A stretch of 64,000 nt of DNA, taken from the NCBI GenBank assembly GCA_022414725.1, contig CM039463.1, forward strand, positions 28,039,571 to 28,103,570, written 5' to 3'. The notes below the pieces were generated by a model that saw only the letters and a list, made by a program, of their open reading frames with translations, made no database searches and was not told where the DNA came from. This document shows positions 24,328 to 62,680 of the stretch, one piece after another (positions within the stretch are counted from its first letter, which is position 1; the number at the start of each line of letters is the position of its first letter). Origin of the DNA: Microglena sp. YARC (taxonomy: Eukaryota > Chlorophyta > Chlorophyceae > Chlamydomonadales > Chlamydomonadaceae). The position numbers were made by a program, and so were the translations under genes.

Positions 24328-26803
24328 GTGAGTTCCTCTCCCTTCCATGCCCATAGAGCCATGCCTCAACATGTCCAATTTCTTATCACCCATTCCTTAT
24401 CTCCTCCCATGCCATCCCCACTGCCATGGCCAGGGCAGGCACAATTAAGGTGGCCCTGAGATGTCGTCCCTAAGTCAGGTCTTTTCATCCCTATCCCACT
24501 CAATAATCCATGCCATGCCTGTGTGATCTGCGTGTGAACAACAAGTATGTAATGCATGTTGGGCAAGCAATATGACCTGTTCTACACTTCCCATTATGTT
24601 TTGAATGCCACCTCACCATGTACACCTATCTACTGGTCCTATTTGCACAAATGCATTGTAATTGTGCCATCATTGGCATCACACATGAGAGTATGTCTGT
24701 TGTTCTTTGGTACTTAGATGCCTTAGAAACTATCCTGTGTATCACATAAAATATCAGTTTTCCAAGTTATAATACAAACAGCATTTTCATGTGCATGCAT
24801 TCCCGAAACCAGCAGCTTGGACACATTCATGCTGTGTCAAATTCACGTTGCATTGCCTTATCCTGCTTGCAATCTGTCATCCAAATACATGCCAGTTTGA
24901 CCGAGTCCTGGAGAAGCCTGATAGGCTACATATATTTGGTGCTTACCTATGCCTACACCCGGACAAATTTGTTCCAAGGATGATCAAGTCCATGCAAGCT
25001 CTAATCCATACCCTTCATCCACACCCCTTATTCATACCTCTCATCTATACCTCATCAAGTCCATGTAAGCTGTCATCCATACCCCTCTCATCCAAACCAC
25101 TCATCTTCATCCCTAATCCAGTGGGGGCACTGAATTGTGTCCATGCCTTTATGCTTGGTGATTTCCTCACCATCTTAGGTCTGGCAAGCTCTCATCCATA
25201 CCCCTCATTCATTTCTCCCATGCCTCACAGGATCTGATATGAATTCTTAGAGCGTACAAACTTCAATACATACCCCTGCAAACTGCATCCCACATGCAGC
25301 TCAGAGTATTATACTGATCCCACATGCCCATATAATTGTACTGTTCCCTCATGCCCAGAGTATTGTACTAACCCCACATGCCCAGAGTATATTACTGATC
25401 CCACATGCCCTTACTATTGTACTGTTCCCACATGCCCAGAGTATTGTACTGATCCCACATACCAACAGTCTTGTACTGATCTCACACACCCAGAGTATTG
25501 TACTGATCCCACATGCAAACAGTCTTGTACTGATTCCACATGCCAACAGTATTGTACTGATCTCACACGCCCAGAGTATTGTACTGATGCCATATGCCCA
25601 GAGTATTGTACTGATCCCACATACCAACAGTATTGTACTGATCTCACACACCCAGATTATTGTACTTATCCCACATGCCAACAGTCTTTTACTGATTCCA
25701 CATGCCAAAGTATTGTACCGATCCCACATGCCCAGAGTATTGTACTGATCCCACATGCCCAGAGTATATGACTGATTCCGCAGGCCCTTACTATTGTACT
25801 GTTCCCACATGCCCAGAGTATAGTACTGATTCCACATGCCAACAGTATTGTACTGATCCCACATGCCCAGAGTAATGTACTGATCCCACATGCCCAGAGT
25901 ATTGTACTGATCCCACATGCCCACAGTATTGTACTGATCCCACATGCCCACAGTATTATACTGATCCCACATGCCCAGATTTTAGTTCTGATTGCTCAAC
26001 GCCTACATCCAACAGGAGGGGCTACCGGCAAATCCCTGCTTGGTAGGGACGATGCCAGCATTTGGTACGAGGCTGCATCGGCCCTACCGCCACTGGAGCT
26101 GGTGGATGATGATGGTGAAGAGGACCCCGACCTGGTTGAACGCATGCGGCAGCAGGGAGAGCTAATGCTTGAGGCAGAGACAGCTTCCTTTGAGAAGGAC
26201 ATGTCCAAGCGTAATGCTGCGGACGCCAAGTGGTTGGACCAAGTGAAGCGCTCAGGAACCACACAAGACAAAGTGGCTGCTATCACACTGACCATTCAGG
26301 TGAGCAGCATGCACAGTCTCTCCTGCGATGGGGTATAGGTGCAGCATGATTGATCTTACCTTGCACAGTGTCTCCTGTGATGGTATCATCACCACCACAC
26401 ACAGCACACACAGCATCCCCCCCCCCCCCCCCCCCCACCACCACCACCACCACCACCACACAGAGCGCACACAGCACAAATACCCCCACCCACCTTCCCA
26501 CCACCAACGCCACCAACGCCACACACACACACACCACACCCCCACAGCACAAAAGCATAAGCATGAGAACTGCACACACACTCCCATGTGGCTAGCCTTG
26601 CGATGAGCCACGTGTATTTAGATGTGCTCAGATCAACTCTAGGACTGACAGTGATTGGCTGCCTCCCAGCGGTCGACTCATAGCTCAGACTGAGAAACAT
26701 CTGCTATTAAATGACAATCATGATTCTGATTGCTCTCTGTCTTGCAACCATAACCTGTGCCAATGGGAAGCACCAGAACTGCACGCCACACCACGCTACG
26801 CCA

Positions 26804-26872
<69 letters not shown>

Positions 26873-30212: not shown

Positions 30213-33200
30213 ACCCACCCACACAGACACACACACCCACCCACCACCCACCATCCCCCACCATTCCTCACCCCCACCATCCCCCATCCTCGGAACCCCC
30301 CGCCATCCTCCCCACCCCACCACCACCATCTCCCTACCTCGTACACCCCACCATCCCTCACTCCCACCTTCACCATCCCCATCCCCCAGGGATCTGCCCA
30401 CGCCAGCTTGAAGGGCCTTGATACTTTACTGCTGTGGGTCCAGCGCCGCAAGGGTGGCAAAGAAGTTGTTCGCCACCTACACCATCCCCCCCCCCCCCCC
30501 CCACCACCACCATTCCCCCCTCCTCCATCCTCACCCCACCCACGTCCCCCACCATCCCCCACCACCCCATACACCCCACCATCCCTCACCCCCACCTTCA
30601 CCATCCCCACCCCCCAGGAATCTGCCCTCGCCAGCTTGAAGGGCCTTGACACTTTACTGCAGTGGGTCCAGCGCCGCAAGGGTGGCAAAGAAGTCGTCCG
30701 CCAGGCGATTGAAGCCCTTCAGGAGCTGTTCCTTGCAGTGATGCTGCCCGACCGCAAGCTCAAGTACTTGGAACAACAGCCCCTCAAGGTGGGTTAAAGC
30801 TTTTTAATAGGGGCCTGTGGGTGGGGGTGAGGGACGGGGTGGATGCAGGTGGATGGTGGGTGGGGTGAGGGATGGGGGGGATGCAGTGATGCTGCCTGAC
30901 CGCAAGCTGAAGTACCTGGAACAACAGCCCCTGAAGGTGGGTTATTGTGGGTCATTGTTTTTTAATAGGGGCCTGTGGGTGGAGGGTGGGGCAGAGGGGT
31001 GGGGGGGGGGATTAAAAAGGTTTTAAAATGTGATCATACAGTCTCGTGTCTGCTGCTGTGTTCTTACAGTCTCGATACACTACCTGTCAAGCACTTGACG
31101 TGTTCTGCTGCTGTGTTATTACAGTCTCCAAACACTACCTGTCCAGCACTCAACGTGTCCTGCTGTTCATGCAGTCTCCACTCAGTACCCATGAAGGGAT
31201 TAACATGTTCTGTTTTTGTGTTCATGCAGTCTCATGTCCTGGTATTGTGTTCTTACAGTCTCCACACACGACCTGTCAAGCACTCAACGTGTCCTGCTGT
31301 TGTGTTCATGCAGTCTCCACACAGTACCCGTCAAGCGATGAACATGTCCTGTTGTTGTGTTCATGCAGTCTCATGTACAGTGCTCTTACTGTCTCATGTC
31401 CTGTTTTTGTGTTCATGCAGTCTCGCATCCTGCTTTTATGTTCTTAAAGTCTCCATACACTACCTGTCAAGCGATTAACATGTCCCGTTTTTGTGTTTGT
31501 GCAGTCTCGTGTACTGTGTTTGTGTTCTTACTGTCTCATGTCCTGTTTTTGTGTTCATGCAGTCTCACATCCTGGTTTTGTGTTCTTTTAGTCTCCATTC
31601 ACTACCTGTCTAGCGATTAACATGTCCTGTTTTGTTTTGTTGTTCATATTTTTGTTTTCGTGTTCTGGTTTTGTGTTCTCACAGTCTCATGCACTGTGTT
31701 TGTGTTCATGCAGTCTCTGCCTGAAGGGAAGGCTGGCCAGAGGCAGCTCTTATTCTGGGCATGTGAGGACGCCATTAAACGCCGCTACAACATGTTCGTC
31801 ACTGCCTTGGAGGAGTGCTCAAAAGATAACCTGGACTTTCTGAAAGAGAAAGCCACTAAGGTATGCTTGGAAAGCTCAGCCTTTGACGTGTTTTCCATGT
31901 CAGTTATTTATCTGGGGCCTGTTTTCTGGGACCTGTTTTTGAATCGTAATGCAGTGTAATGAGTTAAATTCGACCAAGGCGTCCCTTGGGAGATGAGTAA
32001 GTATGTCCCCTCACTCCACTCCCAAGGGACGCCTTGGTTGAGTCCTTCTCGTTGATGAAGGTTGACAGTTGTCAACATGTTGGATCATCCGTTGGATCCA
32101 AGGCATTCGTGAATGCCGTCCGGCCGAGGCACCCGTCAATGCCGACCAATTTGTTACAGAAAGAGAAATCCACTAAGGTATGCTTGGGAAGCTCAGCCTT
32201 TGAGGTGTTTCCCGTGTCGGTTATTTATCTGGGACCTGTTTTTGAATTGTAATGAGTTAAATTAAATGCCGACCAATTTGTTACAGATCACAAGATACTG
32301 ATCCGAGGCATTAGTCAATGCTGATCGACTGAGGGTCTTGTCTTGTTCCCGGCCGCTAGTTAGCGAACATTGATCGTTCATGTCCGGCTGTTTCGTAGCA
32401 TTCCGGCCGTTGCCGATTGAGTGCGTTCACTAATGCTATTATATTCGTTCCGTTTCTGAAGAAGTATCCAATTATCTTCATTCATGTTATTTTCATGGTT
32501 GATTGGGTTGTTTTGTGCTCATTAATGTCTTCCTCTGCTGCTACTTCAGTTTTGTTATGGCTGATTGCGTACATTGGTGTTCATGATAGGATTCCTCTGC
32601 TGTTGCGCAAGTTTTTCTGATGGAATGTGTACATTTATGTTCATGACAGTCTTCCTCTGCTGCTGCGCAAGTTTTTCTTATGGAATGTGTACATTTGTGT
32701 TCATGACAGTCTTCCTCTGCTGTTGCGCAAGTTTTTTTGATGGCTGATTGTGTTGATTTGTGTTCGCGATTGTCTTTCTCTGCTGTTACTTAAGTTTTTT
32801 TGATGGCTGATTGTATAAATTTGTATTCATGATTCTCTTCCTGCGCATACCATCTATGAGCTGATTATGTAAATTTGTGTTCATGATTGTCTTCCTCTGC
32901 TGTAGCGCCAGTTTTGGGGATTGCTGATTATGTAAATTTGTGTTCATGATTGTCTTCCTATGCTGTTGAGCATACCATCTAAGAGCTGATTATGTACATT
33001 TGTGTCCATGATTGTCTTCCTATGCTGTTACTCCAGTTTGGGAGATGGCTGATTATGTAAATTTGCGTACATGATTGTCTTCCTATGCTGTTGCGCATCC
33101 CATTTATGAGCTGATCATGTACCTTAGTGTTCATGATTGTCTCAATTGTTTTTCTTGCTCTATATTGCGATCGCTACTAAGGACCCCGTTACATTTTGTA

Positions 33201-36200
33201 TGCCCTAAATGGCCCTGAAAAGCCACATAAAGCACCAAAACGCTCACCCTGTAGGAGGCCCATTCTGTTCATGATTGTCTTCCTAAGTCGTTTCACCCTC
33301 CCTGCTTCGCAGACCATCTATGAGCTAATGTGCAAAAAGCCAGAGGCCGAGGCACGCCTGCTGTCAGCCCTCGTCAACAAGTTAGGTGACCCAAGCCGAA
33401 AGATCGCTTCCAAGGCTGGCTATTTGCTCAGCCAGCTTTTGTTACAACACCCAGCCATGAAGCCAGTGGTAGTCCGAGAGGTGAGCGCATCAATACATAA
33501 ATAAATAATACATCTTATTCATTCCATATGCAACCAACCAATCTATATGCCTGATGTGTCTGCCTGTTGTTCCTGTAGCACCAGCATCACAACCTCCATA
33601 ACGCCCCTATTCCTGTGAGGCACCATGGCAAGGAGATGCGCACATCACTTCACCCCTTTGCCTGAGGCTTGTCCCCTGTTGATGTCAATGTCCTCCACGA
33701 TACGAGGTGCACATTCCATGTGCAACCAACAATATCTATATGCCTGATGTGTCTGCCTGTTGTTCCTGTAGCACCAGCATCACAACCTCCATAACGCCCC
33801 TATTCCTGTGAGGCACCATGGCAAGGAGATGCGCACATCACTTCACCCCTTTGCCTGAGGCTTGTCCCCTGTTGATGTCAATGTCCTCCACGATACGAGG
33901 TGCACATTCCATGTGCAACCAACGCAATCTATATGCCTGATGTGTCTGCCTGCTGTTCCTGTAGCACCAGCATCACAACCTCCATAACGCCCCTATTCCT
34001 GTGAGGCACCATGGCAAGGAGATGCGCACATCACTTCACCCCTTTGCCTGAGGCTTGTCCCCTGTTGATGTCAATGTCCTCCACGATACGAGGTGCACAT
34101 TCCATGTGCAACCAACCAATCTATATGCCTGATGTGTCTGCCTGTTGTTCCTGTAGCACCAGCATCACAACCTCCATAACGCCCCTATTCCTGTGAGGCA
34201 CCATGGCAAGGAGATGCGCACATCACTTCACCCCTTTGCCTGAGGCTTGTCCCCTGTTGATGTCAATGTCCTCCACGATACGAGGTGCACATTCCATGTG
34301 CAACCAACCAATCTATATGCCTGATGTGTCTGCCTGTTGTTCCTGTAGCACCAGCATCACAACCTCCATAACGCCCCTATTCCTGTGAGGCACCATGGCA
34401 AGGAGATGCGCACATCACTTCACCCCTTTGCCTGAGGCTTGTCCCCTGTTGATGTCAATGTCCTCCACGATACGAGGTGCACATTCCATGTGCAACCAAC
34501 CAATCTATATGCCTGATGTGTCTGCCTGTTGTTCCTGTAGCACCAGCATCACAACCTCCATAACGCCCTATTCCTGTGAGGCACCATGGCAAGGAGATGC
34601 GCACATCACTTCACCCTTTGCCTGAGGCTTGTCCCCTGTTGATGTCAATGTCCTCCACGATACGAGGTGCACATTCCATGTGCAACCAACCAATCTATAT
34701 GCCTGATGTGTCTGCCTGTTGTTCCTGTAGCACCAGCATCACAACCTCCATAACGCCCCTATTCCTGTGAGGCACCATGGCAAGGAGATGCGCACATCAC
34801 TTCACCCCTTTGCCTGAGGCTTGTCCCCTGTTGATGTCAATGTCCTCCACGATACGAGGTGCACATTCCATGTGCAACCAACTCAATCTATATGCCTGAT
34901 GTGTCTGCCTGCTGTTCTGTAGCACCAGCATCACAACCTCCATAACGCCCCTATTCCTGTGAGGCACCATGGCAAGGAGATGCGCACATCACTTCACCCC
35001 TTTGCCTGAGGCTTGTCCCCTGTTGATGTCAATGTCCTCCACGATACGAGGTGCACATTCCATGTGCAACCAACCAATCTATATGCCTGATGTGTCTGCC
35101 TGTTGTTCCTGTAGCACCAGCATCACAACCTCCATAACGCCCCTATTCCTGTGAGGCACCATGGCAAGGAGATGCGCACATCACTTCACCCCTTTGCCTG
35201 AGGCTTGTCCCCTGTTGATGTCAATGTCCTCCACGATACGAGGTGCACATTCCATGTGCAACCAACCAATCTATATGCCTGATGTGTCTGCCTGTTGTTC
35301 CTGTAGCACCAGCATCACAACCTCCATAACGCCCCTATTCCTGTGAGGCACCATGGCAAGGAGATGCGCACATCACTTCACCCCTTTGCCTGAGGCTTGT
35401 CCCCTGTTGATGTCAATGTCCTCCACGATACGAGGTGCACATTCCATGTGCAACCAACCAATCTATATGCCTGATGTGTCTGCCTGTTGTTCCTGTAGCA
35501 CCAGCATCACAACCTCCATAACGCCCCTATTCCTGTGAGGCACCATGGCAAGGAGATGCGCACATCACTTCACCCTTGCCTGAGGCTTGTCCCCTGTTGA
35601 TGTCAATGTCCTCCACGATACGAGGTGCACATTCCATGTGCAACCAACCAATCTATATGCCTGATGTGTCTCCTGTTGTTTCCTGTAGCACCAGCATCAC
35701 AACCTCCATAACGCCCCTATTCCTGTGAGGCACCATGGCAAGGAGATGCGCACATCACTTCACCCCTTTGCCTGAGGCTTGTCCCCTGTTGATGTCAATG
35801 TCCTCCACGATACGAGGTGCACATTCCATGTGCAACCAACGCAATCTATATGCCTGATGTGTCTGCCTGTTTTCCTGTAGCACCAGCATCACAACCTCCA
35901 TAACGCCCCTATTCCTGTGAGGCACCATGGCAAGGAGATGCGCACATCACTTCACCCCTTTGCCTGAGGCTTGTCCCCTGTTGATGTCAATGTCCCCACG
36001 ATACGAGGTGCACATTCCATGTGCAACCAACCAATCTATATGCCTGATGTGTCTGCCTGTTGTTCCTGTAGCACCAGCATCACAACCTCCATAACGCCCC
36101 TATTCCTGTGAGGCACCATGGCAAGGAGATGCGCACATCACTTCACCCCTTTGCCTGAGGCTTGTCCCCTGTTGATGTCAATGTCCTCCACGATACGAGG

Positions 36201-39200
36201 TGCACATTCCATGTGCAACCAACGTATCTATATGCCTGATGTGTCTGCCTGCTGTTCCTGTAGCACCAGCATCACAACCTCCATAACGCCCCTATTCCTG
36301 TGAGGCACCATGGCAAGGAGATGCGCACATCACTTCACCCCTTTGCCTGAGGCTTGTCCCCTGTTGATGTCAATGTCCTCCACGATACGAGGTGCACATT
36401 CCATATGCAACCAACGCATCTATATGCCTGATGTGTCTGCCTGTTGTTTCTGTAGCACCAGCATCACAACCTCCATAACGCCCCTATTCCTGTGAGGCAC
36501 CATGGCAAGGAGATGCGCACATCACTTCACCCCTTTGCCTGAGGCTTGTCCCCTGTTGATGTCAATGTCCTCCACGATACGAGGTGCACATTCCATGTGC
36601 AACCAACGTATCTATATGCCTGATGTGTCTGCCTGTTGTTCCTGTAGCACCAGCATCACAACCTCCATAACGCCCCTATTCCTGTGAGGCACCATGGCAA
36701 GGAGATGCGCACATCACTTCACCCCTTTGCCTGAGGCTTGTCCCCTGTTGATGTCAATGTCCTCCACGATGCACATTCCATATGCAACCAATGTATCTAT
36801 ATGCCTGATGTGTCTGCCTGTTGTTTCTGTAGCACCAGCATCACAACCTCCATAACGCCCCTATTCCTGTGAGGCACCATGGCAAGGAGATGCGCACATC
36901 ACTTCACCCCTTTGCCTGAGGCTTGTCCCCTGTTGATGTCAATGTCCTCCACGATACGAGGTGCACATTCCATATGCAACCAACGCATCTATATGCCTGA
37001 TGTTTCTGCCTGTTGTTCCTGTAGCACCAGCATCACAACCTCCATAACGCCCCTATTCCTGTGAGGCACCATGGCAAGGAGATGCGCACATCACTTCACC
37101 CCTTTGCCTGAGGCTTGTCCCCTGTTGATGTCAATGTCCTCCACGATACGAGGTGCACATTCCACATGCAACCAACCAATCTATATGCCTGATGTGTCTG
37201 CCTGTTGTTTCTGTAGCACCAGCACCATGACAAAGAGCTTGCTTGTTATAGACTATTTCATATCCAAAGAGCTTGCTTGTTGCCAAAGAGCTTGCTTGTT
37301 ATAAACAATTTTATATCCAAAGAGCTTGCTTGCTTGTTTATAGACATACTATTTTATATCCAAAGAGCTTGCTTGTTGCCAAAGAGCTTGCTTGTTATAG
37401 ACTATTTTATATCCAAAGAGCTTGCTTGCTTGTTTATAGACATACTATTTTATATCCAAAGAGCTTGCTTGTTATAGACTATTTTATATCCAAAGAGCTT
37501 GCTTGCTTGTTTATAGACATACTATTTTATATCCAAAGAACATCAGTCAATTTCTTTACTTGCCAGTCTAGAACCCGGGCTGCCGGGAATATTTCAACTT
37601 ACACTGGTCGATAAACTGCACCACAATTATTGACCACCGTTCAACCACACCCTCACGAGTAGATAACTGCACCAAAACCAGCCACCAATTAATCAATCAC
37701 CCTCACCCTCACCCTCATGCATAGATCCACTGTACACCAATCTACCAACCAGGCAAACTACAACCAAGCTGACAACCAAATCCACAATAGTGCAATGATA
37801 GGGAGTTGATCAAGGACGCCCCTGCCTTTGATGAGGACCCAGTGATGGAGCTTGCAAGTACCCTCACCATCACGCATAGATAAACTGCACCACAACCACC
37901 CACCCAACCACCCAACCAACCAACCTACCAGCCGCATCCACCCTACTGCAGTGATGAGGAGTAGATCAGGTAAGCCCCTGACTCCGATGAGTACCCAGAG
38001 ATGGAGCTTGCATGTACCCTCACCAACACACATAAATAAACTGCACCACAACCAACCAACCATCCACATCCACCCCACCGCAGTGATGAGGAGGAGATCA
38101 AGGACGCCCTGAGTACGACAAGACCGGGATGAAGCCTGCAAGTACCCACACCATCGCGCATAGATAAACTGCACCACAACCAACCAACCAACCAACCAAC
38201 CAACCTACCGCAGTGATGAGGAGGAGATCAAGGACGCACCTGACTCCGACGAGGACCCCGAGTTGGAGCTTGCAAGCACAGCTGCACAACAGCAAGAGCG
38301 ACGCGAAGGCAGTGAAGTCGGGACCAGCAATGCTGCGGTCACTGCGAAGTGGCCCAAGGACGATTTCTACGACATGGGCAAGCGGTGAGAGTGAGGATTG
38401 TTTTTCCGCTATATATAGCGAACTAGTTTTTACCCGTTTAAGCAAAATTTATCGCTATAAATAGTTGTTGTGCCCCCCTCCCCCCCCCTACCCCACTAAA
38501 TGGCCTCTATAATAGCTACCAAACGCACTACAACGCTGTCCATGGAGGAGGCTTAGAACCATTAAGCTAGAAAAAAAACATTTTCAGATTTGAAAAATAA
38601 ATCACTGGTAATCACTGGAGTGGTAGTGTTGGAGACACTTAGTTTTTATACATACATACGCTAAACACACACATATTATCACCAAACCAAACCACCCTTA
38701 TTCCCCAAAGATCACTAACTCACTCCCACCTGCCATCCAACAACCTCCCACCAACCACCATCAACCACTGGCACCACCACCACCAATAACCCCTAACCCT
38801 CCAAAACCCACCAACCACCATCAATCACTGCCCACAACATCAGCAATATCACTAATCTCCCCCCTCGCCCCATCCTGCCATCTGTTTAGTCAGCCCTTAC
38901 TCTCGCACGCAGAGCGCACCTACTTCTGGGATCTCAGGGTCCTTGCGTAACGTCCATATGTGGCATAGTATCCAAACGAAACCACCCTGCTTCCTCACAT
39001 CACTAACTCACCTCCACCGTCCCATCCTGCCTTCTGTTTAGTGAGCCCTTATTCTCGCACGCCGAGCGCTCCTGCTTCTGGGAGCTCACAGCCCTTGCAC
39101 CACACGCGCATTAATATGTGGCATAGTATCCAAACAAAACCACCCTGCCCCCCGAGAGATCACTTACTCACTCCCACCACCCCATCCTGCCTTCAGTGAG

Positions 39201-50408: not shown

Positions 50409-52127
50409 ATGGTTCCCTCGGGGGCGATACCCCGCCCCCACCTCTCGTCCCTGAAACCCTTATGCATACGTCCGGTAGCGTACTCAGCGTGCAGAACGAC
50501 TGTTTCCGTAGGCCTCAGGTCGAAACATGAGCATAAAAAGTGTCGGTCTCCCTTGGGTTCGACCAGCAGGGCTCAGTCCGAGGGTGTGCCAGCCTGCCAG
50601 GCTACTGAAGATGCTACCAAGCCACAAACAGTCTCTGAGGAGACTCTCTTAGCCTCAGATGATACTGCATGTCCCACCCAGGCAAGGGATACCTTAGTAG
50701 ACTTGGCGAAGGCTAGCTCCGCTCCTCCCCATGCTGTCCCTACCCCCTCCCATGAGCAGCTAGCAGAGATGAGGGCAACTGTAGAGAGGCTGTGCCACAT
50801 TTTGGCAGTCGAGGCCCCTAGCGTGGGGTGTGCCATGGAGCACGTGAACCGCTTATGGGCCCTTGCGCGCTGCTGCATTGCTCTTGGCCCTGAGGTGAGA
50901 AACACACCTCCAGCTTCTGGAATGAGAAACACACGACCAGCATCACAAGTGAGCCGCATGCTGGCTGCCTCAGTCCAAGCCCTGCTGCCTGCTACCCATG
51001 CACCTCCTGCCCACAGCCCAGCTCATCAAACAGCCCACAGCGCAAGCATGCGCAAGATGCAAGAGGCAGGCGCAGCGAAGGACACAGGGCGAGGAGTAGC
51101 TGAGACAGTAGCTGAGACAGGCTGCAGCCTCAGCCCCCCATCCAGCATATCTAGCCTCAGCTCTGGCTCACTAGCCAGCCTGGCATGGTCTCTGGCAAAG
51201 TTGGGCTGGACAGATAAGGCTGTGTGGTCTGAAATCTCTGCAGCATCAGCTAATATTCTGGCACAACCCACAGAGTGGATGCAAAGGCCAGCCTCTTCTG
51301 GGTCTCATGGAAGCACACCAATGAAAAGGCCAGTCTCTTCCAAGTCTCATAGGGACACGCCAGTACAAAGGCCAGCCTCCTCTGGGTCTCATAGCAATAC
51401 GCCAGTACAAAGGCCAGCCTCCTCTGGGACTCATAGCAGTGCGCCAGTACAAAGGCCAGCCTCTTCTGGATCTCAAGGCAACACGCCAGTACAAAGGTCA
51501 GCCTCGTCTAGGCCAGAAGGGAACACACCAACAGGACTAGGACAGATTACTAGCACCGCAGGAGGAATAGGTGACCAAGAGGGTCTCGGAGCTGAGGCAA
51601 ACAGGTTGGATGGGATTGAGATGTTTGGAGATGTAGAAGGATCTCTAGGTAGGGAATTAATGAGAGTTCATGAAACTGAGGCGAAGTTGTCTCGAGGGGG
51701 TGTGACAGGCAGAGCTCTGGAAGGTGATGCAGACACTGTGGTGGTTGCACCCACGTCTGATTCTCAACCACCTGGGTCTGAGCCTGTGGCTGCTGCTGCT
51801 GCTGCCGATGCTGCTGCCGATGCAGCTGTTGCTGCTGCTGCCGATGCTGATCCTGTTGATGATGCTGATCCCCTCAGCAATCCTGGCACTGGTGGTGAGG
51901 AGGTATCCCAGTCTGAAGTCCCTTTGCTTGAAGAGGGCGACTCTCCGTTTGACGAATACTGCCTGGTACAGCTGATGTGGTCATTTGCAACAGTCAATCA
52001 CGCAGACGAGGCCTTCCTCCATGCTACCGGCCACACCATCCAGGCCATGGCTGCTCATGGAAAGTTGAGCCCAGCATCAGCCTCCCCTCTTGCATGGGCA
52101 CTGTCTACTCTCATGCATGCACCATTT
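50409..52127 (+). CDS. FAST/RAP-like gene exon 1
   Basis: 573 codons, donor GTAAGT at 52128. The start is [20 protein letters not shown] with a basic transit-like stretch. Residues about 290-375 are seven to eight degenerate 15-residue repeats of the [14 protein letters not shown] type (51280-51530). A run of about 20 Ala/Asp residues lies at 51785-51860. It ends in a helical repeat ([15 protein letters not shown]). The ATG at 50409 is the first in the frame, and an adjacent divergent gene limits further extension. Confidence 0.85.
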
Positions 52128-52434
52128 GTAAGTATGAAAATATGTATGACAAATTTGTATTACTTGTATTAGCGCTGGCTACTCTCATGCATACACCATT
52201 TGTAAATAAAATTTGGAAGTAAAATTTGCAAGTAAAGAAATTTGAAAGACAATTGTAATTTGTAATTTGGGTGATGGCTACCCTCATGCATCAACCATTT
52301 GTAAGGAAAGAAAAAGGCTTTTATGGATAATTACATAAATACTTTCATGCATCAACCATGTGTAGGTAAAGAAAAAGACCTCTATATAACATTACATAAA
52401 TTCTTTTTATTTGATTTTTCGCATTAAAAAACTC

Positions 52435-53443: not shown

Positions 53444-56400
53444 TTATTTGTCAGGTAAAATAATTGTTTCAAAACGATTTATTTTACTTGGTTCATTTAC
53501 AGGATATCAACGTTTTCGGAGCATTGGCTCATGTGGCACTCTCGCCGTTGGGTAGAGTGCAGAGCTTGGGTGAAGTCATGAGTCCGGAGGCCATCCGCCA
53601 GCTGGCACTTGCATTTGCACGGGCAGACTGCTACCATTCTGTACTGCTTGATGAGCTGGCAGCAGCTGTGGAGTCAAAGGTACAGCACTACACTCCAAAT
53701 GCGCTCGCAGATGTCCTGTGGTCCTTGTCTAAACTCGGGCACTCAGCTAGGGCCATCGTCCAGCCTCAGCTAGGGCCCTCAGCAATGGCCATCGTCAAGC
53801 CTCGTCCGAACACAAAAGACCAGGATGAGGATAATAGCAGCAGTGCTGCCATGAGAAGCGACAGGATCTCATCTGGTAGCCAGGCATCAACCTCCCTTCC
53901 AAATCGTGGCAATGCCGGAAGCGGCCATGCTGGTGGTAGCCATGCTGGGGCTAGCCAGGCATCAACCTCCCTTCCAAATCGTGGCAATGCCGGAAGCGGC
54001 CATGCTGGTGGTAGCCATGCTGGGGCTAGCCAGGCATCAACCTCCCTTCCAAATCGTGGCAATGCCGGAAGCGGCCATGCTGAGGCTAGCCAGGCATCAA
54101 CCTCCCTGCCAAATCGTGGCAATGCCGGAAGCGGCCATGCTGGTGGGAGCCATGCTGGGGCTAGCCGTGCTAGTGGTCCCAGTGGTCCCAGTGTCAGCCA
54201 TGCTTCAGACATGCCTAGTGTCAGCCATGCTAGGGGTAACCGTGCCGGGGTCAGCAATGCTGGGAGTAGCCGTGTTTGTGATCCCAGTGGAGGACATGCC
54301 TCAGACATACCTAGTGTTTGGTTCAATCCCACCCCTTGGCAGCCAAGCCCCCAGCGTGCAGTCCCTGAAGCCACTAGATGGCCGGCCCTAGCCTGGTTGA
54401 ACGCAGATACATATTACAAGCAGCAGGAGCTTTACGTTGGACATCACAAGGGTGACAATTCCCTCAAACCTAAAATCAAGGGACCGCCTGTCAAGGCATG
54501 GCACATGAAGGTGTGGCGCATGCGAGACGAGGCCATGACAGGGCATGGCTACATACGCCTGGACACAGCCCTCCCTGGCGTCAGAATTGGCAAGAAGATC
54601 AATGTGCACCGTCTGCAGTGTGCTTTGCAATCGTGGCGGCTGTTTGACCTCGCAAATGGCTTGGCCCCGCGCATAAACGAGATGTCCAATGAGGTGAGTC
54701 TAGCCACTGTTTTTTTCTCGTGTGACATGTAAATTGAGGGACTCGGTGCGACCACAGTTCAACGCGCGCGGCGCAGGTTTCGGGGGGCATTTCTGGCTAG
54801 TTTAGCTAGACCCATGCATCACCATGCAGCAACGGAATGGCGACAGGTCACAAAAAACAAACAGCGAGTCTAGCGAGCCCTACTTTTTTGTTGTTTTATT
54901 TTATTGAAAGGATTTTCACCCCAGGAATTGGGACTCAGTACACAAAACAGCGCAACGGACGGAAAAAAACATTTTTACATGCTGGTATTATGTATACATA
55001 AGCAGGAGTTTCACGTTGGAAATGCGAGCCTTAGCCCTTTCATCCTCTCTGTGATTTTAGCGCTTGTCGCGGAACTCGATTACCCTTGGAGGACCTGGGT
55101 AATAAATAAAGATAACGCCTGGAGGGGCGTGGTGTTAAAAGGACCATCCCGTACGCTGCAGCTGGGGAAAGTAACCCACTCAGGACCTTGGCATATCACC
55201 ATGCCTCAATATTTTGGCGAAAGACTTTGTGGGTGGTTATGGGGCACATAGTGATATAGGCAAACAGACATGTCACCATGCCTCAATGTGTTGGCAAAAG
55301 GCTTTGTGGGTAGTTAGGGGGGCATATAGTGATATAGGCAAACAGACATGTCACCATGCCTCAATATTTTGGCGAAAGACTTTGTGGGTAGTTAGGGGGC
55401 ATATAGTGATCTAGGCAAACAGACATGTCACCATGCCTCAATATTTTGGCGAAAGACTTTGTGGGTAGTTAGGGGGCATATAGTGATCTAGGCAAACAGA
55501 CATGTCACCATGCCTCAATATGTTGGCAAAAGAATTTGTGGGTAGTTAGGGGGGCATATAGTGATCTAGGCAAACAGGCATGTTAACATGCCTCAATATG
55601 TTGGCAAAAGGCTTTGTGGGTAGTTTGGGGGCATATAGTGATATAGGCAAACAAGCTTTTCACCATTCCTCCATATTTTGACAAAAGGCTTTGTGGGTAG
55701 TTAGGGGGCATATAGTGATCTAGGCAAACATGTATGCCTGTGTCTACCTGATTTGCTTATATCCACGTAATACTATACATTGCCCTATATCTGCCCTTTA
55801 TGCATCTGACTAAGTAATATGCATTTATAGCTAAAGTGGTTTCAATAGGGTAATTCAATTTAAAATTTGCTGCAACCAAGCTGTGCTTGTATTTATCCTT
55901 ATGTCTGACCAACCAACAGGGGTTTGCTTGCCTTCTTATGCATGCGTAGAGGCAGATGACACCTTGGAAGGCCCTCAACTCTCTCAAGCCTCTTCTGAGC
56001 TGATCTCAAGCCTCTCTTCAAAACCCTTACCTATATGCCCCTGACTAAGTAACAACTAAAATAAATAAATAGTACGCCTTATTATTAGGTGTGAGGTTGA
56101 GAGGGGCAGCCCTTTTGCTTGCACGGGGGCCAACCACCAATCTGACTATGTAATATTCTTGTATCTGCGTATTCAACAGGGGATTGCTCGCCTTCTCGAG
56201 GCATTTGTAGAGGCAGAGCACATTGCCGAAGAATCTTTACTCACTCAAGCCTTTTCTGAGCTGGTCTCGAGACTGTCTTCAAAAAAGCTGCGAGATGCGG
56301 AGCTGATCTGCCGCTTCGCTTGGTGCTGTGCTAATCTCCAGCGCGGTGACACGTAAGTCATAAATAAATAAATAGTACGCCTTATTACAATGTGTGAGGT

Positions 56401-59400
56401 TGAGGGGGCCAGCCCGTTCGCTTGGTGCTGTGCTAATCTCCAGCGGGGCAGTACGTAAGTCAATGTAAATAAATAAATAAATAGTACGCCTTAATACACG
56501 GCTAGAGGTTGAGGGGGCCAGCCCGTTTGCTTGGTGCTGTGCTGATCTCCAGCGCGGCGATATGAAGTCAGTGTAATTAAATAAATGAATAGTACACCTT
56601 CTTAGAAGGCGTGAGGTCGAGATGGCCAGCCCGTTTGCTTGCAATGGGGTCAACCACCCAAGTCAACATCACTGGATGTGGAACTCCTTTTTGAGGTTGG
56701 GTTTGGGGGCTATAGTTAGTTGGTTTGGGCTTTGGGCTTGCGGTAGGGGTTAGGGGAGGGTGTTTTGGACAGTGTTTTTAATTTCAGATTTCTGTAGTCC
56801 AGGTTGAGTAGCTACTTGGGGTACTCAACCCTATTTTCAGGATATTTGCGTAGCCATCGCATGGCGAAGCGCGAAGCGCGGAGCCTTGGGGGGTCGGGGG
56901 GCAGCGCGTCCGATATCGGGGGGGTCCGGGGTTGTAGCATTCTAACGGAATGGCGACGGAATGGCGACGCGTCGTCAAAAAATGAAACACTGGTTTGGAA
57001 GTCTTTATGTGGTCGTGTAGGTGGTGATGTTGGTGGGGAAGTGGGTGATTTTGTGGGAGAAGACGTGGGCATACTTGAGTAATGTAGAGCACCAATAAAA
57101 TGTATCCTTCTTCATCTCTTCGTGTCCCCTGTGCAGCGCACTGGAGTACAGTAGGGCACCAGTATAACGTATCCATCGTCATCTCTTATTATTCCCTGTG
57201 CAGGAAACTTCAGCACAGTAGGGTACCAATTAAATGTTTCCATATTCGTCTATTCTTGTCCCCTGTGCAGCACACTTGAGTACAGTAGGGCATCGGTAAG
57301 ATGTGTCCATCGGCACTCTTATTGTCCCCTGTCCAGCGCACTTGAGTACAGTAGGGCATCAGTAAGGTGTGTCCATCGTCATCTCTTCTTGTCCCCTGTG
57401 AAGGAAACTTCAGTACATTAGGGCACCAATAAAATGTATCCGTCTGCATCTCGTATTGTCCCCTGTGTAAGAAACTTCAGTAGAGTAGGGCACCAATAAA
57501 ATGTATCCGTCTGCATCTCGTATTGTCCCCTGTGTAAGAAACTTCAGTAGAGTAGGGCACCAATAAAATGTATCCGTCTGCATCTCGTATTGTCCCCTGT
57601 GTAAGAAACTTCAGTAGAGTAGGGCACCAATAAAATGTATCCGTCTGCATCTCGTATTGTCCCCTGTGTAGGAAACTTCAGTACAGTAGGGCACCAATAA
57701 AATGTATCCGTCTGCATCTCGTATTGTCCCCTGTGTAAGAAACTTCAGTAGAGTAGGGCACCAATAAAATGTATCCATCTGTATCTCTTCTTGTTCCATG
57801 TGCGGCGCACTTGAGTACAGTAGGGCATCAGTAAGATGTGTCCATCTGCACTCTTCTTGTCCCCTGTGCAGCGCACTTGAGTACAGTAGGGCATCAGTAA
57901 GATGTATTCATCGTCATCTCTTATTGTCCCCTGTGTAGGAAACTTCAGTAGAGTAGGGCACCAATAAAATGTATCCATCTGTATCTCTTCTTGTTCCATG
58001 TGCGGCGCACTTGAGTACAGTAGGGCACCAGTAAAATGTCTCCATCATCATCTCTTCTTATCCCCTGTGCAGGAAACTGTTTACAGCGTTTCTGAGCCAG
58101 GTCTCCTTGAAAAGGACATTAGAACGCCTTTCATCACCAGAGAGTATCAGCCGGCTGATGTGGTCGATGGCTGTCACACGGTACTACGACAAGGTCTTCT
58201 ATGACCTGGCGGCCCGGAAGCTTAAGATAATGTTTTGGAAGGGAGAGAGCAGTGGAGTGCACCTGATTCGAGTCGCTGGAGCCTATGCTACCTTCAAACA
58301 TTACGATGGGTACGCGAGTTTGTGTGCATGCGTGTTTGTGTGTGTGTTTGTATGTGTTCGTGTGCATGTTTGTGTGTGTGTTTGTATGTGTTCGTGTGCA
58401 TGTGTGTTTGTGTGTGTGTTTGTATGTGTTCGTGTGCATGCATGTTTGTGTGTGTGTTTGTATGTGTTCGTGTGCATGTTTGTGTGTGTGTTTGTATGTG
58501 TTCGTGTGCATGTGTGTTTGTGTGTGTGTTTGTATGTGTTCGTGTGCATGTTTGTGTGTGTGTTTGTATGTGTTCGTGTGCATGTTTGTGTGTGTGTTTG
58601 TATGTGTTCGTGTGCATGTTTGTGTGTGTGTTTGTATGTGTTCGCGTGCATGTTTGTGTGTGTGTGTTTGTATGTGTCCGTGTGCATGTTTGTGTATGTG
58701 TATGTGTGTATGTGTGCGTTCATGCTCGTGGGTGGGTGGGTGGGTGGGTGTTGGCTGTCCCACAGTACAACGACCCGGTCTTCTACGACCTGACGGCCCG
58801 AAAGCTTAATTTGTTTTGTGGAGGGGGGGAGCAGTGGAGTTGACCTATGTTTATGTTTATGTGCTTGTGAGTGTGTATTTGTGTATGCATGTGTGTGTAT
58901 GTGTTAAGGAGTGTTTGTGTGTGTGCGCTCATGCTTGTTGGTGGGTCAGTGGGCCAGTGCTGGTGTCCTCCACTATCCAGAACAAATTTGAGCCCAAACA
59001 TCAGGAGGATCCAGATTTTTCAACTGTTTCAACTTCTTGTTGTCCACTCTTCAGTCTTTGCACACCTGCGCAATGCCCAAGAACTAGTATGTGCCCAAAC
59101 ATCACTCGTATTCAGATTTACAACTGTTACAACTGTTGCAACTGTTTGTTGTCCACTCTTTAGTTTTTGCACACCTGCGCAATGCTCAAGAACTAATATA
59201 CACCCAAACATCACTCTGATTCAAATTGTTCAACTGTTTCAACTTCTTGCAGTCCACTCTTCACCCAGCTATGCAACGCTGCGGTGATGCCCGGTCAAGA
59301 ACAACTGTGAGATATTGTATCTGTCTGATTCAAGGTTTACAACTGTTTCAACTTCTTGCAGTCCACTCTTTAGTCTTGGCTCACCTGCCCAATGCTGAAG

Positions 59401-62283
59401 AACTAATATGCGCACAAACAACACTCTGTTTCAGATTTTACAACTGTTTCAACTTGTAGTCCAACTAGTTCAGCGTGTAATCCACTCTCCACCCTGCTAT
59501 GCAACGCTGCAGTGATGCCCGCTCACGAACAAATAAGAGCTATTTATCTTTCTGATCCAGATTTAACAACTGGTTCAACTTCTTGCAGTCCACTCTTTAG
59601 TCTTGGCTCACCTGCCCAATGCTGAGGAACTAATATGCGCCCAAACATCACTCTGATTCTGATTTTTCATATTTTGATATACTATTTTCAATTACATCTA
59701 CCTGCAGGAACATATCAAATATTGTCCAGCAGATGGTTGTCCTGGAGGTGAATGGCCAGCAGGACATAGGAGCCTATAACTAATCATGTCGTCCAAGTTG
59801 TTTTTAGTAATTTTTATTGCAACTTCTTGCAGTCCACTCTTCAACCTGATGTGCCTGGCTGCGGTGCGCCAAGGCTTGATAGCACAGCTGAGTCTTGAGA
59901 AGCTGGTGCATCTGATGCGCTCCCTGTCTTGGGTGCTCATTCAACTAAAATTTCCTTTGTGAGCCCAAGTCTACTCAGATTCAAATTTTTCAACTGTTTC
60001 AACTTCTTGCAGTCCACTCTTCAACCAGATGTGCTTAGCTGCGGTGCGCCAATGCTTGATTGCACAGCTGAGTCTGGTGGAGCTGGTGCAGCTGCTGCGC
60101 TCTCTGTCCTGGGTGCAGCACATCGACGAGGGGCTCATGAAAGATATTCTCGCAGTGATTAGCAACGTATGGGACAATGACCCAGATCAATTCGCCCCAC
60201 GTGAGTTGTGTACTTGATTATTACAGTCAGAACTGATATGTTGCATTGATGGTCGCATGAGGTTTGTGCTTGGTTCTTACTGTTTGGAGTTATGTTTTAC
60301 ATTGATCACAATGTATGGGACAATGAACCAGGTCAATTCACTCCTCATGAGTTGTGGACTAGTTTATTACAGTCAGAACTGATATGTTGCATTGATGGTC
60401 GCATGAGGTTTGTGCTTGGTTCTTACTGTTCGGAGTTATGTTTTACATTGATCACAATGTATGGGACAATGAACCAGGTCAATTCGCTCCACGTGAGTTG
60501 TGTGCGAGTTTATAACAGTCTAAACTGACGTTGACGAGAGGCTCATGAAGGATATTCTGGCAGTGATTAGCAACGAACTGTGAGGGGGGGGGGGGGGGGG
60601 GGGGGGCAGGGGGATGGGAGAGGGGAGGAGAGAGGGGGGAGGGGGCGGAAAGCAGGGGTTAGACGGGAGGGGGGAGCGATAAGAGAGGGGCGTAGGGGGT
60701 GGGATAATGAGCCAGATCAATTCGCTCCAAGTGAGTATTGAACTTGTTGGGGTTCAGTTCACCAGTGCTTGTTTTTCATACAGCCCTTTCAATATTGAGG
60801 TTGGGCAATTCTATTTAGCCTACTTGGCTACGCCGTAAGCGGCTAAATTGGTTGTTACAGTCTGGATCGATGTTTTATATACATGATCACGTGAGTTATG
60901 TACTTGGTTGTTACAGTCTGGATCGATGTTTTATATTAATGAACACGTGTGTTATGTACTTATTTGTTACAGTCTGGATCGATGTTTTATATACATGATC
61001 ACGTGAGTTATGTACTTGGTTGTTACAGTCTGGATCGATGTTTTATATTAATGAACACGTGTGTTATGTACTTATTTGTTACAGTCTGGATCGATGTTTT
61101 ATATTAATGATCACGTGAGTTATGTACTTATTTGTTACAGTCTGGATCGATGATTTATATTAATGATCACGTGAGTTATGTACTTGGTTGTTACAGTCTG
61201 GATCGATGTTTTATATACATGATCACGTGAGTTATGTACTTGGTTGTTACAGTCTGGATCGATGTTTTATATTAATGAACACGTGAGTTATGTACTTATT
61301 TGTTACAGTCTGGATCGATGTTTTATATTAATGATCACGTGAGTTATGTACTTATTTGTTACAGTCTGGATCGATGTTTTATATTAATGATCACGTGAGT
61401 TATGTACTTATTTGTTACAGTCTGGATCGATGTTTTATATTAATGATCACGTGAGTTATGTACTTGGTTGTTACAGTCTGGATCGATGTTTTATATTAAT
61501 GAACACGTGAGTTATGTACTTGGTTGTTACAGTCTGAATTGATGTTTTATATTCATAATCATGTGAGTTATGTACTTGGTTGTTACAGTCTGAGTTGATG
61601 TTTTATATTCATAATCATGTGAGTTATGTACTTGGTTATTACAGTCTGAGTTGATGTTTTATATTCATAATCATGTGAATTATGTACTTGGTTGTTACAG
61701 TCTGAGTTGATGTTTTATATTCATAATCATGTGAGTTATGTACTTGGTTATTACAGTCTGAATTTGTGTGTTACATTGATGATCACAGTACGATGAACTG
61801 AGATTGACAACTATTGCAGTCTGAATTGGTTTGTTACAGTCTGCATTGGTGTGCACTTGTTTGGTACAGTCTAAACTGACATTGACGAGAAGATCATGAA
61901 GGATGCTTTGGCAGTCTTTTTTATTTTTCAATTACGCGTCACCATTCCGTCGCTGCATGGCGACTTATGGGTCTGGCTGATGTAGTCAGAAGTGCCCCCC
62001 CGGACCCTCAGAGCTCCGCGGTCCGCAGTGCGAAGCTCCTGGGGGGCAGCGCGTCGCACTGGGATTTGAACGAGTTTGTGACCTTACACTACCTGCATCA
62101 CATTCAGATATTTCAAAGACGCTGTTCGAGACTCGAGTCATCTTGGATGACATCTATGGCGGCTTTGGGATCACTCTACCCTTCACTCTCCCGCATCAGC
62201 TGGGCAGACGTGCTCGTTATGCATGGGCTCTGCAGACCACAAAGGACTTTGTCGTTTCAAAGTTTCAGAGCAGCATTTTTGAG
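50409..62283 (+). CDS. Large organelle-targeted FAST/RAP (OPR-like) helical-repeat protein, 3' end outside the window
   Basis: Six exons (50409-52127, 53503-54693, 56180-56352, 58073-58309, 60013-60200, 62108-62283) join in consistent phase to 1,228 codons, open at the right. The N terminus is basic and Ser/Arg-rich without early acids, like a plastid or mitochondrial transit peptide. Helical-repeat motifs recur: [54 protein letters not shown] and [20 protein letters not shown]. This L-x-x-(L/I)-(A/M)W(S/A)-(F/L)A(K/T)-(L/x) pattern is typical of FASTK-like, RAP-domain and octotricopeptide proteins, which bind organelle RNA. The expected C-terminal RAP domain would lie beyond 64000. Exons 1 and 2 carry in-frame minisatellites and Ala runs. 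Family-level assignment is good; the exact RNA target is unknown. Confidence 0.83.
52128..52375. repeat. Echoes of the exon 1 donor
   Basis: Three decayed copies of the exon 1 end plus donor at about 52170, 52272 and 52340 (GGCTACTCTCATGCATACAC, then CATTTGTAA). They lose similarity progressively away from the true junction. Confidence 0.8.
52430..53445. mobile_element. Element inserted in a TA microsatellite, inverted ends
   Basis: A TATATATA tract at 52435-52466 is followed by CGAGGGGGGGGCAGGAA. About 950 bp later CTTTTTTCCTTGCCCCTCG is followed by a second TATATATA tract (53412-53438). The ends are imperfect inverted repeats (CGAGGGG(GGG)CA(A)GGAA), with GCACGTTC also shared about 30-40 bp inside each end. 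The interior has long C/G runs (52531-52558, 52880-52960, 53278-53292) and no clear coding. It may be a non-autonomous transposon with TA target preference; it splits intron 1. Confidence 0.6.
53503..54693 (+). CDS. FAST/RAP-like gene exon 2
   Basis: 397 codons, phase 0, between TTCATTTACAG and GTGAGT. It begins [20 protein letters not shown], with helical repeats [20 protein letters not shown] and [17 protein letters not shown]. Then comes a Ser/Gly/His-rich insertion made of four copies of a 16-25 residue unit ([20 protein letters not shown]; 53878-54165), a looser SHA repeat, and a unique basic end ([20 protein letters not shown]). Confidence 0.85.
54694..56179. repeat. Intron 2: family A copy, 85-bp array and an exon 3 pseudo-copy
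   Basis: 54740-54850 has family-F-like sequence. 54890-54962 is a family A copy. 55190-55735 holds six to seven units of about 85 bp (GGGGGCATATAGTGATCTAG, GCAAACAGACATGTCACCAT, GCCTCAATATTTTGGC). 55905-56030 is a decayed copy of exon 3 with acceptor (CCAACAGGGGTTTGCTTGCC, GTAGAGGCAGATGACACC, TTCTGAGCTGATCTCAAGCC). A family B copy is at 56075-56130. Confidence 0.85.
56180..56352 (+). CDS. FAST/RAP-like gene exon 3
   Basis: 57 codons plus two bases between ATTCAACAG and GTAAGT. It reads [40 protein letters not shown] and [17 protein letters not shown], amphipathic helices of the repeat type. AC plus G of exon 4 gives Thr. Confidence 0.85.
56353..56700. repeat. Two echoes of the exon 3 end joined to family B copies
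   Basis: CGCTTGGTGCTGTGCTAATC plus TCCAGCG(G/C)GGC recurs at about 56419 and 56529, followed by degenerate donors (ACGTAAGTCA, ATGAAGTCAG). Each is preceded by AGTACGCCTTA...GGCCAGCCCGTT of family B, so exon echo and dispersed repeat have been amplified together. Confidence 0.85.
56701..57089. other. Intron 3, family-F-like segment
   Basis: GGTTTGGGGGCTATAGTTAG-type sequence, then a GC-rich family-F-like segment (56845-56985) with GCGCGGAGCCTTGGGGGGTC and CGGAATGGCGACGGAATGG. No exon is seen. Confidence 0.5.
57090..58072. repeat. About 64-bp array echoing the exon 4 acceptor
   Basis: About 15 units of TTGTCCCCTGTG(T/C)A(A/G)G, AAACTTCAGTACAGTAGGGC, ACCAATAAAATGTATCCATC and GTCATCTCT. CCCCTGTGCAGGAAACT is the true acceptor plus first seven bases of exon 4. 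Some units keep GTGCAG (strong decoys); the central near-identical ones read GTGTAAG, so their AG is displaced. Confidence 0.93.
58073..58309 (+). CDS. FAST/RAP-like gene exon 4
   Basis: One base, 78 codons and two bases between CCTGTGCAG and GTACGC. It reads [40 protein letters not shown] and [20 protein letters not shown], then [36 protein letters not shown] is a clear repeat of the FAST/OPR type. GG plus T of exon 5 gives Gly. Confidence 0.88.
58310..59000. repeat. GT-rich minisatellite and a decayed copy of exon 4
   Basis: 58310-58735 is TTTGTATGTGTTCGTGTGCA plus TGTTTGTGTGTGTG units. 58760-58845 is a pseudo-copy of exon 4 (CCACAGTACAACGACCCGGT, CTTCTACGACCTGACGGCCC, GAAAGCTTAA, GGGAGCAGTGGAGT) that begins at an acceptor-like CCACAG and ends early. 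GT-rich repeats resume after it. Confidence 0.88.
59001..60012. repeat. About 100-120 bp array echoing exon 5, with one long pseudo-copy
   Basis: Around eight units carry CAACTGTTTCAACTTCTTGC, AGTCCACTCTTCA and a variable stretch (TTTTGCACACCTGCGCAATG). CTTCTTGCAG plus TCCACTCTTC is the real acceptor and start of exon 5. The unit at 59832-59945 extends about 105 bases into exon-5-like sequence (CAACCTGATGTGCCTGGCTG, CTGATGCGCTCCCTGTCTTG) and then breaks off. Confidence 0.92.
60013..60200 (+). CDS. FAST/RAP-like gene exon 5
   Basis: One base, 62 codons and one base between CTTCTTGCAG and GTGAGT. It reads [40 protein letters not shown] and [20 protein letters not shown], then AP. The helical repeat continues. 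The spare C joins AT of exon 6 to give His. Confidence 0.85.
60201..60859. repeat. Donor echoes, internal exon 5 copies and a G run
   Basis: Two 175-bp units (60201-60375, 60376-60555) repeat the donor neighbourhood (CATGAGTTGTGGACTAG, CACGTGAGTTGTGTGCGAG) with GGACAATGAACCAGGTCAATTC from the exon end. 60530-60578 copies ATGAAGGATATTCTGGCAGT from inside exon 5. A G-rich tract with a run of about 22 G follows at 60583-60690, then another exon-end copy (60697-60735) and a family C copy (60790-60865). Confidence 0.88.
60860..61780. repeat. 56-bp array of micro-exon-like units
   Basis: About 17 units of GTGAGTTATGTACTTGGTTG, TTACAG and a 30-nt block starting TCTGGATCGATG and ending GATCAC or GAACAC. 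Thus each unit has a donor-like GTGAGT, a 20-26 nt pyrimidine-rich spacer and an acceptor-like TTACAG. The last four units have drifted (TCTGAGTTGATG, AATCATGTGAG). The GTGAGTTGTG and TTACAG pieces match the true exon 5 donor neighbourhood, so the array probably grew from it. Confidence 0.93.
61781..62107. repeat. End of intron 5 with a family F insertion
   Basis: 61860-61915 has a decayed copy of an exon 5 piece (ACATTGACGAGAAGATCATG, AAGGATGCTTTGGCAGTC). 61935-62060 is a family F copy (GTCGCTGCATGGCGACTTAT, GGGGGGCAGCGCGTCGCACT), ending about 45 bp before the exon 6 acceptor. Confidence 0.7.
62108..62283 (+). CDS. FAST/RAP-like gene exon 6
   Basis: Two bases plus 58 codons between ATCACATTCAG and GTAGGA. 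It reads [40 protein letters not shown] and [18 protein letters not shown]. The closing S-x-x-Q-x-x-(I/V)-x-E helix resembles the segment that precedes RAP domains in plastid proteins. The gene continues beyond the window. Confidence 0.82.
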
Positions 62284-62680
62284 GTAGGAGGTCATTTCGT
62301 TCTCCTCTGCTGTGTCCAATATAACTGCGCAGGAACCAAGGTGTAGGCAGAGAGGGAGTGGGTGGATGGCAGTGGGTGGGTGGCATTGGGTCGCTATGCA
62401 TGCGCGCTTCAGACCACAAAGGACTTCCTAGTTTCAAAGTTTCAGAGCAGCATTTTTGAGGTAGTTGTTCATTCTGTTCTCCTCTGCTGTGTCCAATAGA
62501 ATTGCGTAGGAACCAAGGTGTAGTAGGCAGGGAGGGGGTGGGTGGATGGCAGTGGGTGGGTGGCATTGGGGAGGAGGGAGGGAGTGGGTGGGTGGCATTG
62601 GGAGCACCCAAGGTGTAGGCAGGGAGGGAGGGGGTGGATGGCAGTGGGTGGGTGACAATGGGAGGAGGGAGGGAGGTAGG
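62284..62680. repeat. Echo of the exon 6 end and GTGGGTGG units
   Basis: 62391-62465 repeats the exon 6 end with donor (CGCTATGCATGCGCGCTTCA, CAAAGGACTTCCTAGTTTCA, AGCAGCATTTTTGAGGTAG). It is embedded in two units with GGTGGATGGCAGTGGGTGGG. Confidence 0.88.

Follow-up and report, generated by a model that had tools for sequence, protein, structure and literature searches.

Why do the introns of neighbouring genes hold copies of the edges of their own exons? The question is raised by the window, that is, the whole stretch of 64,000 nucleotides analysed here, which covers positions 28039571-28103570 of contig C2 in a 568-Mb assembly of 2390 contigs. A preliminary description of this DNA had found copies of exon edges, with their splice sites, beside almost every junction of several genes, and had proposed that a replication- or repair-linked process amplifies splice junctions as such. 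Our analysis places these copies in a wider setting. They are most probably the exon-edge part of a general, genome-wide and untargeted short-range direct (tandem) duplication, whose products are sorted by selection.

Results

Genes and gene models of the window

The NOC1 (Mak21) gene spans 24.0-44.1 kb of the window. Its closest named relatives are proteins of Haematococcus lacustris, the NOC1 of strain UWO 241 being less similar, and the window proteins suggest that the host is a green alga of the Chlamydomonadales. Two public predicted proteins, P0001 and P0005, are near-identical to the window NOC1, and a third, P0121, matches a second large gene, FAST-like, which occupies 50.4-62.3 kb and extends beyond. 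P0001, P0005 and P0121 carry the gene numbers 18712, 18713 and 18715, in the order found in the window, and the three proteins were therefore taken to come from the same species.

NOC1 exons were modelled by homology to Haematococcus NOC1 (P0002) and to the same-species proteins P0001 and P0005, FAST-like exons by homology to P0121 together with an open joined frame (exons 1-5, 1190 codons, no stop), and a small minus-strand gene by an open frame and splice consensus only. The CBF domain (PF03914) was matched above cut-off by P0001 and P0005, and only positions 135-164 of the profile were found in the window itself. The single Pfam match of P0121 was to FAST_1 (PF06743), at 25.5 bits against a cut-off of 27.4, and the RAP domain gave no match on P0121, whose sequence stops at exon 6. 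No RNA family (Rfam, gathering scores) and no tRNA (tool run with the bacterial code) was detected in the window.

Copies of exon edges along NOC1

Positions are those of the window, and features lie on the forward strand unless stated otherwise. NOC1 exon 1, from the start codon to the donor (24000-24327), is matched by P0001 at 100% and has no donor copy, and exon 2 (26016-26299) has no copy on either side. Several long C tracts occur, among them 39 consecutive C within an intron at 26806-26844. Exon 3 (30618-30788), all of which is matched by Haematococcus P0002, is flanked by a decoy copy of its acceptor at 30350-30469, holding 80 exon nt at 94% identity and included in P0001, and by a decoy copy of its donor at 30882-30987 with 55 exon nt. 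Upstream of the acceptor of exon 4 (31714-31860, placed by homology), an array at 31029-31640 consists mostly of intron sequence, with 10 exon nt in one copy (31204-31241); the donor copy of this exon, at 32159-32217, holds 19 exon nt. A 63/125-bp array at 32486-33142 carries a fragment of the acceptor of exon 5 (17 exon nt, at 32841-32865), while exon 5 itself (33313-33480) has no donor copy. It is followed at 33520-37224 by a 192-bp array of 19.3 copies with 98% matches, which occupies the expected place of the NOC1 middle.

Three decoy copies of the acceptor of exon 6 lie at 37760-37861, 37913-38012 and 38046-38145, ahead of the exon (38214-38384), which P0005 matches at 100% and which has no donor copy. 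Exon 7 (39359-39551), where homology and profile place the end of the CBF domain, is preceded by three acceptor copies with 57-80 exon nt (38851-39270) and followed by four donor copies in a 128-bp array (39759-40194), one of which is included in P0005. Two acceptor copies with 49 exon nt each (40217-40450) precede exon 8 (40766-40882), which has no donor copy, and exon 9 (41709-41879) has none on either side. Exon 10 (42514-42847) contains an in-frame 30-bp repeat at 42596-42667 and is followed by two donor copies at 42983-43185, with 39 and 80 exon nt, the second of which is included in P0005. The last exon (43492-44082) contains in-frame repeats with periods of 36, 42, 18 and 30. In all, the NOC1 junctions without a copy in the threshold listing described below are the donor of exon 1, both sides of exon 2, the donors of exons 5, 6 and 8, both sides of exon 9, and the acceptors of exons 10 and 11.

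Copies along the minus-strand and FAST-like genes

The last exon of the small minus-strand gene (ADEYRSKLEKRVAQLESLVAKEPKQELQN*; 46147-46236, minus strand), placed from an open frame and an acceptor only, is the exon 2 of this gene, and seven decoy copies of its acceptor with 27-37 exon nt each lie on the same strand at 46291-47319.

FAST-like exon 1 (50409-52127) begins at the first residue of P0121, contains in-frame 42-bp repeats, and is followed by three decoy copies of its donor (52172-52375). Exon 2 (53503-54693) has no copy on either side and contains an in-frame array of 75-bp repeats with 100% matches, which points to recent duplication; repeats of 75 and 60 bp that keep the frame lie at 53877-54143. 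A copy of the acceptor of exon 3 (55914-55998; 80 exon nt, 78%) and two copies of its donor (56414-56607) flank that exon (56180-56352), which, like exons 4 (58073-58309) and 5 (60013-60200), is supported by P0121 and an open frame. A 67-bp array at 57073-58079 reaches into the acceptor of exon 4, with 14 exon nt in one copy. On the donor side of exon 4, a degraded copy at 58745-58867 derives from the exon interior. Six decoy copies of the acceptor of exon 5 (59008-59910) end with one at 59817-59910 that holds 78 exon nt and is included in P0121, and four decoy copies of the donor region of the same exon lie at 60300-60746. Exon 6 (62108-62283), modelled from P0121, is followed by one donor copy with 70 exon nt at 89% (62391-62498). 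The junctions of this gene without a copy in the threshold listing are both sides of exon 2 and the acceptor of exon 6. Beyond them, positions 62682-64000 belong to a simple G-rich array longer than 1.3 kb, and 166 of 249 windows in the 10 kb that follow are of low complexity.

Copies were confirmed at the junctions named in the preliminary description except the acceptor of NOC1 exon 10, whose copy gave no exon sequence; the donor-side copy of FAST-like exon 4 exists, but comes from the interior of the exon and not from its edge. As had also been described, the copies at the window junctions lie on the intron side and often form tandem arrays; they have the same direction as the original and usually reach the junction.

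Frequency of junction copies inside and outside the window

In an exon-only test, up to 60 bp from the edge of each exon were scored by alignment against the neighbouring intron, with 100 dinucleotide shuffles of that intron for comparison. Among the 30 junctions of the three genes, 14 scored above all 100 shuffles, and none did so in reverse complement; the acceptor of NOC1 exon 5 scored 29 against a shuffle maximum of 31. A threshold listing made without shuffles, in which the query joined 80 exon and 40 intron bases and a copy had to hold at least 8 exon bases, gave one copy or more at 19 of 32 junctions and none at 13. Both counts took the exon start of the minus-strand gene as 46237 instead of the correct 46236, a correction that leaves the counts of spanning copies over 80 junctions unchanged. 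The share of junctions with copies is thus about half, and not almost every junction as first described.

Seven genes outside the window were then available for comparison. NOC4 and NOC3 came from a CBF-family search and were named by the relatives found with their exons; a search with PF00118 (chaperonin family) gave 64 exon matches, from which five genes, presumably of the CCT type, were sampled. We observed copies above all shuffles at 28 of 49 junctions, against 1 of 49 on the reverse strand, and at 26 of 45 when the chaperonin-family genes were taken without NOC3 and NOC4. The copy began no more than 4 bases from the junction in 26 of the 28 cases. These genes are spread over four contigs (C1, C2, C3 and C5), and junction copies are therefore not local to the window. 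For the chaperonin genes, profile positions, the reading frame and the splice consensus guided a manual placement of junctions ahead of the copy test, although one repeat each in loci L029 and L031 was already apparent by then, and the copies of NOC3 and NOC4 had been seen by eye before they were tested. Junctions at profile gaps 103/138, 364/392, 89/120 and 467/436, at donor 227/248 and at the ambiguous donor 282/278 were left out. Apparent frame breaks occur in conserved chaperonin-family exons of L027 (about 5861-5904) and L028 (about 6161-6184); these are assembly indels or belong to a decaying gene copy.

The preliminary description had expected exon edges to match their adjacent introns more often than mismatched ones. 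Over 34 introns, with NOC3, NOC4 and the minus-strand gene left out, this held strongly: 29 of 68 exon edges matched their own intron, against 3 of 2244 edge-intron pairs elsewhere, and two paralogue-like chaperonin genes may explain these three. Within the same 34 introns, 63 of 72 copies sit in the half nearer their own junction, and all donor copies lie upstream of the acceptor copies in each of the six introns that hold both kinds. Junction-spanning copies numbered 105 and were found at 42 of 80 junctions, at least one at each.

Duplication at and away from the junction

At increasing distance from the junction, we determined what fraction of 30-bp windows has a local copy on the same strand. 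On the intron side, the genes of the window gave 0.56 in the first 30 bp, 0.80 beyond 450 bp and 0.52-0.70 in between; successive 30-bp steps into the exon gave 0.47, 0.30, 0.17, 0.27 (90-120 bp) and 0.46 (120-150 bp), with 0.35 in the interior. The rise deeper in these exons may come from the in-frame repeats that exons of the FAST-like gene and of NOC1 contain. The genes outside the window gave 0.54 at the junction, 0.40-0.64 further in and 0.49 deep in the intron, against 0.49, 0.35, 0.24 and 0.16 in the exon and 0.14 in its interior, and their donors and acceptors were alike. No peak of duplication at the junction was found in either gene set. In both, the profile stays level on the intron side, and it falls off from the junction into the exon. 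This speaks against a process that amplifies the junctions themselves, and the predicted enrichment of junction-spanning over mid-intron copies did not appear in the genes tested (0.56 vs 0.80 in the window, 0.54 vs 0.49 outside). A mild depletion of copies at junctions could be hidden in these profiles, because slow-changing exon sequence makes old copies easier to recognise at exon edges than between two copies of intron sequence.

We also scored complex 40-mers for a same-strand copy within 2.5 kb, after dropping, for low complexity, 304 of 2977 windows. Local copies were found for 73% of 1148 intron 40-mers and 48% of 1185 outside genes, for 49% of 71 that span a junction and for 31% of 269 in coding sequence, with 0-5% on the reverse strand. 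A genome sample of 19 stretches of 10 kb, 18 of them at 9-Mb steps on C1 and one on C2, gave local copies for 1700 of 3944 complex 40-mers (43%), against 182 on the reverse strand; this sample includes satellites and mobile elements, its low-complexity windows were dropped, and in two of its stretches N makes up at least half of the sequence. The share varies from 3% to 100% between single stretches. One of them (L015, 10 kb) looks like a 59-61 bp satellite throughout, with local copies for 248 of 248 complex 40-mers. The introns of the window (73%; 0.80 in their deep part) exceed the genome sample (43%), and the deep introns of the other genes do so less (0.49). There may be some preference of duplication for the window genes or for transcribed DNA.

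Shape of the copies and state of the decoy splice sites

The offsets of neighbouring copies vary widely; 279 of 487 fall between 30 and 200 bp, multiples of a unit being counted too. Units of nucleosome size were considered and rejected, since the offsets have no clear peak. Clean head-to-tail pairs are a minority, 842 of 980 matched segments being shorter than 0.6 of the copy offset; either erosion or nesting has altered the arrays, or simple tandem duplication does not account for the whole process. No microhomology signature was seen in 64 two-copy cases (median excess 1 bp), many of which came from one 59-61 bp satellite.

Among array rows with a period of at least 9, where overlapping rows can describe one array, the period is divisible by three in 15 of 16 rows that lie wholly within coding sequence, 38 of 113 in introns and 31 of 101 outside. 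Exons therefore seem to undergo the same kind of duplication, with the reading frame as a filter.

The 105 spanning copies have a mean flank identity of 0.91, and their GT or AG is intact in 86 (0.819), against 0.829 expected from flank identity. When the best copy of each junction is taken, the dinucleotide is intact in 38 of 42 (0.905) against 0.853 expected. We saw no selection against the decoys, whose decay is neutral-like.

Several decoy copies are carried as coding sequence by P0001, P0005 and P0121. Haematococcus NOC1 (P0002) is without the extra NOC1 peptides of these same-species models, and the proposal that the true splice site is the outermost copy fits such homologous proteins. 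Should transcripts underlie the models of P0001, P0005 and P0121, decoy sites would be in greater use than we have assumed.

Discussion

We propose that short direct duplications arise across the genome regardless of gene structure, and that what persists would depend on where they fall. Copies inside an intron would persist, and those inside an exon would do so only if the reading frame is kept. A copy that crosses a junction could also persist, as the outermost splice site, attached to the intact exon, would remain usable; the copy farther from the exon body would then turn into intron, so that the intron lengthens and partial exons with their splice sites are left inside it. Splicing would ignore these decoys, probably because a decoy acceptor alone would define no exon: no decoy donor comes after it ahead of the true acceptor, as donor copies lie at the opposite end of the intron. 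The parts of the preliminary description that concern tandem duplication across junctions, the lengthening of introns and the planting of decoy splice sites are thus upheld. The duplication process is probably continuing.

A process directed at the junctions themselves, linked for example to transcription, to RNA-DNA hybrids or to the repair of splice sites, would account for copies at about half of the tested junctions and for the start of 26 of 28 copies outside the window within 4 bases of a junction. We consider it unlikely. Simple geometry makes any contiguous duplication that includes the edge of an exon cross the junction, neither gene set has a peak there, donors do not differ from acceptors in the genes outside the window, and arrays are dense outside genes and in the genome sample too. 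Selection that keeps the copies as spare or alternative regulatory splice sites is also hard to reconcile with the data, and we regard it as very unlikely: many decoy dinucleotides are intact, the best copies stand slightly above expectation (38/42 vs 0.853) and some copies are present in predicted proteins, but the 105 copies taken together are intact at 0.819 where 0.829 is predicted, and they are scattered over unrelated housekeeping genes. Mobile introns or introner-like elements that carry exon-edge sequence are a further candidate, introners being a known source of new introns (PMC9860276). Such elements would scatter similar sequence over the introns of many genes, and matches to only 3 of 2244 other exon-intron pairs, with units private to each junction, make them barely conceivable here.

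That the copies are artefacts of long-read assembly appears highly improbable, even though the assembly probably has local faults. The middle of NOC1 (P0001 residues about 378-795, that is, about 400 residues and most of the CBF domain) is absent from 33481-38213, where the 192-bp array with its 98% matches stands instead, and a search of the whole assembly for it returned one weak match only (67%, residues 678-713), on another contig. This suggests that arrays damaged the assembly locally, and the region is unfit for arguments on junction copies. Local errors probably exist elsewhere too, given the frame break in two chaperonin-family genes. Artefacts would nevertheless hardly respect the reading frame in exons, and the copies diverge from their originals (mean flank identity 0.91). 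Furthermore, some decoys are shared with same-species proteins that hold the NOC1 middle missing here, and these proteins were therefore probably built from other assembly data. Untargeted short-range duplication sorted by selection remains our preferred explanation.

A bolder version of untargeted duplication is offered tentatively, as one that may well prove wrong. Repeated tandem duplication in place, and not the insertion of transposons, might be the main way in which introns grow in this lineage, and it might be so rapid that decoys now face about half of the junctions; splicing would be strict enough on exon definition to tolerate them, and the order of donor copies before acceptor copies would keep the load bearable.

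Ordinary minisatellites and intronic variable tandem repeats form arrays with units of tens to hundreds of bp. Unlike ordinary minisatellites, the units described here include exon edges, and arrays within exons keep the reading frame. A closer parallel is found in lancelet genes, where tandem duplications of exon-intron boundaries have been called mirages (available portions of PMC3087553 and PMC3902484) and where RT-PCR indicated regular splicing (same portion of PMC3087553). As far as these portions describe them, mirages are direct copies of donors or acceptors with partial exons, lie on the intron side, affect both exon ends, and have units of about 10-160 bp, in many of which the splice signals are intact. 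The copies in the alga resemble them in each respect that we counted: direct copies with exon sequence span the boundary at 42 of 80 junctions, 63 of 72 lie in the intron half nearer the authentic boundary, and 86 of 105 hold splice signals. The accessible accounts of mirages proceed gene by gene, in an animal and with RT-PCR, whereas the host here is a green alga known from DNA sequence, with copies at about half of the sampled junctions and a measured background of local duplication.

In potato, an RdRp gene gained an intron when a boundary was duplicated in tandem (available text of PMC4974935, which cites the AGGT model of intron gain of Rogers 1989). As reported there, the duplicated unit spans the 3' end of an intron and the 5' part of an exon and supplies splice signals, as in the alga; a new intron arose in potato, whereas existing introns were lengthened here. 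The accessible part of a study of the amphioxus Huntingtin gene mentions tandem repeats and no mirages (PMC2206037). Open-access titles and the openings of abstracts report no such junction copies for algae, which is weak evidence of absence. As far as the literature found shows, the new elements are the green-alga host, the density of the copies, the measurement of background duplication and the finding that decoys decay in a neutral-like way, the kind of structure itself being known.

If the proportion of 42 in 80 junctions holds genome-wide, this alga would offer a natural test of how the spliceosome chooses among near-identical sites. It also illustrates how introns can become longer through short tandem duplication, which might in addition pave the way for new introns. 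The copies also carry a warning for annotation, as gene predictions in such genomes take in decoy exons, as three predicted proteins did here. Duplicated peptides may have swollen the gene sets of this species.
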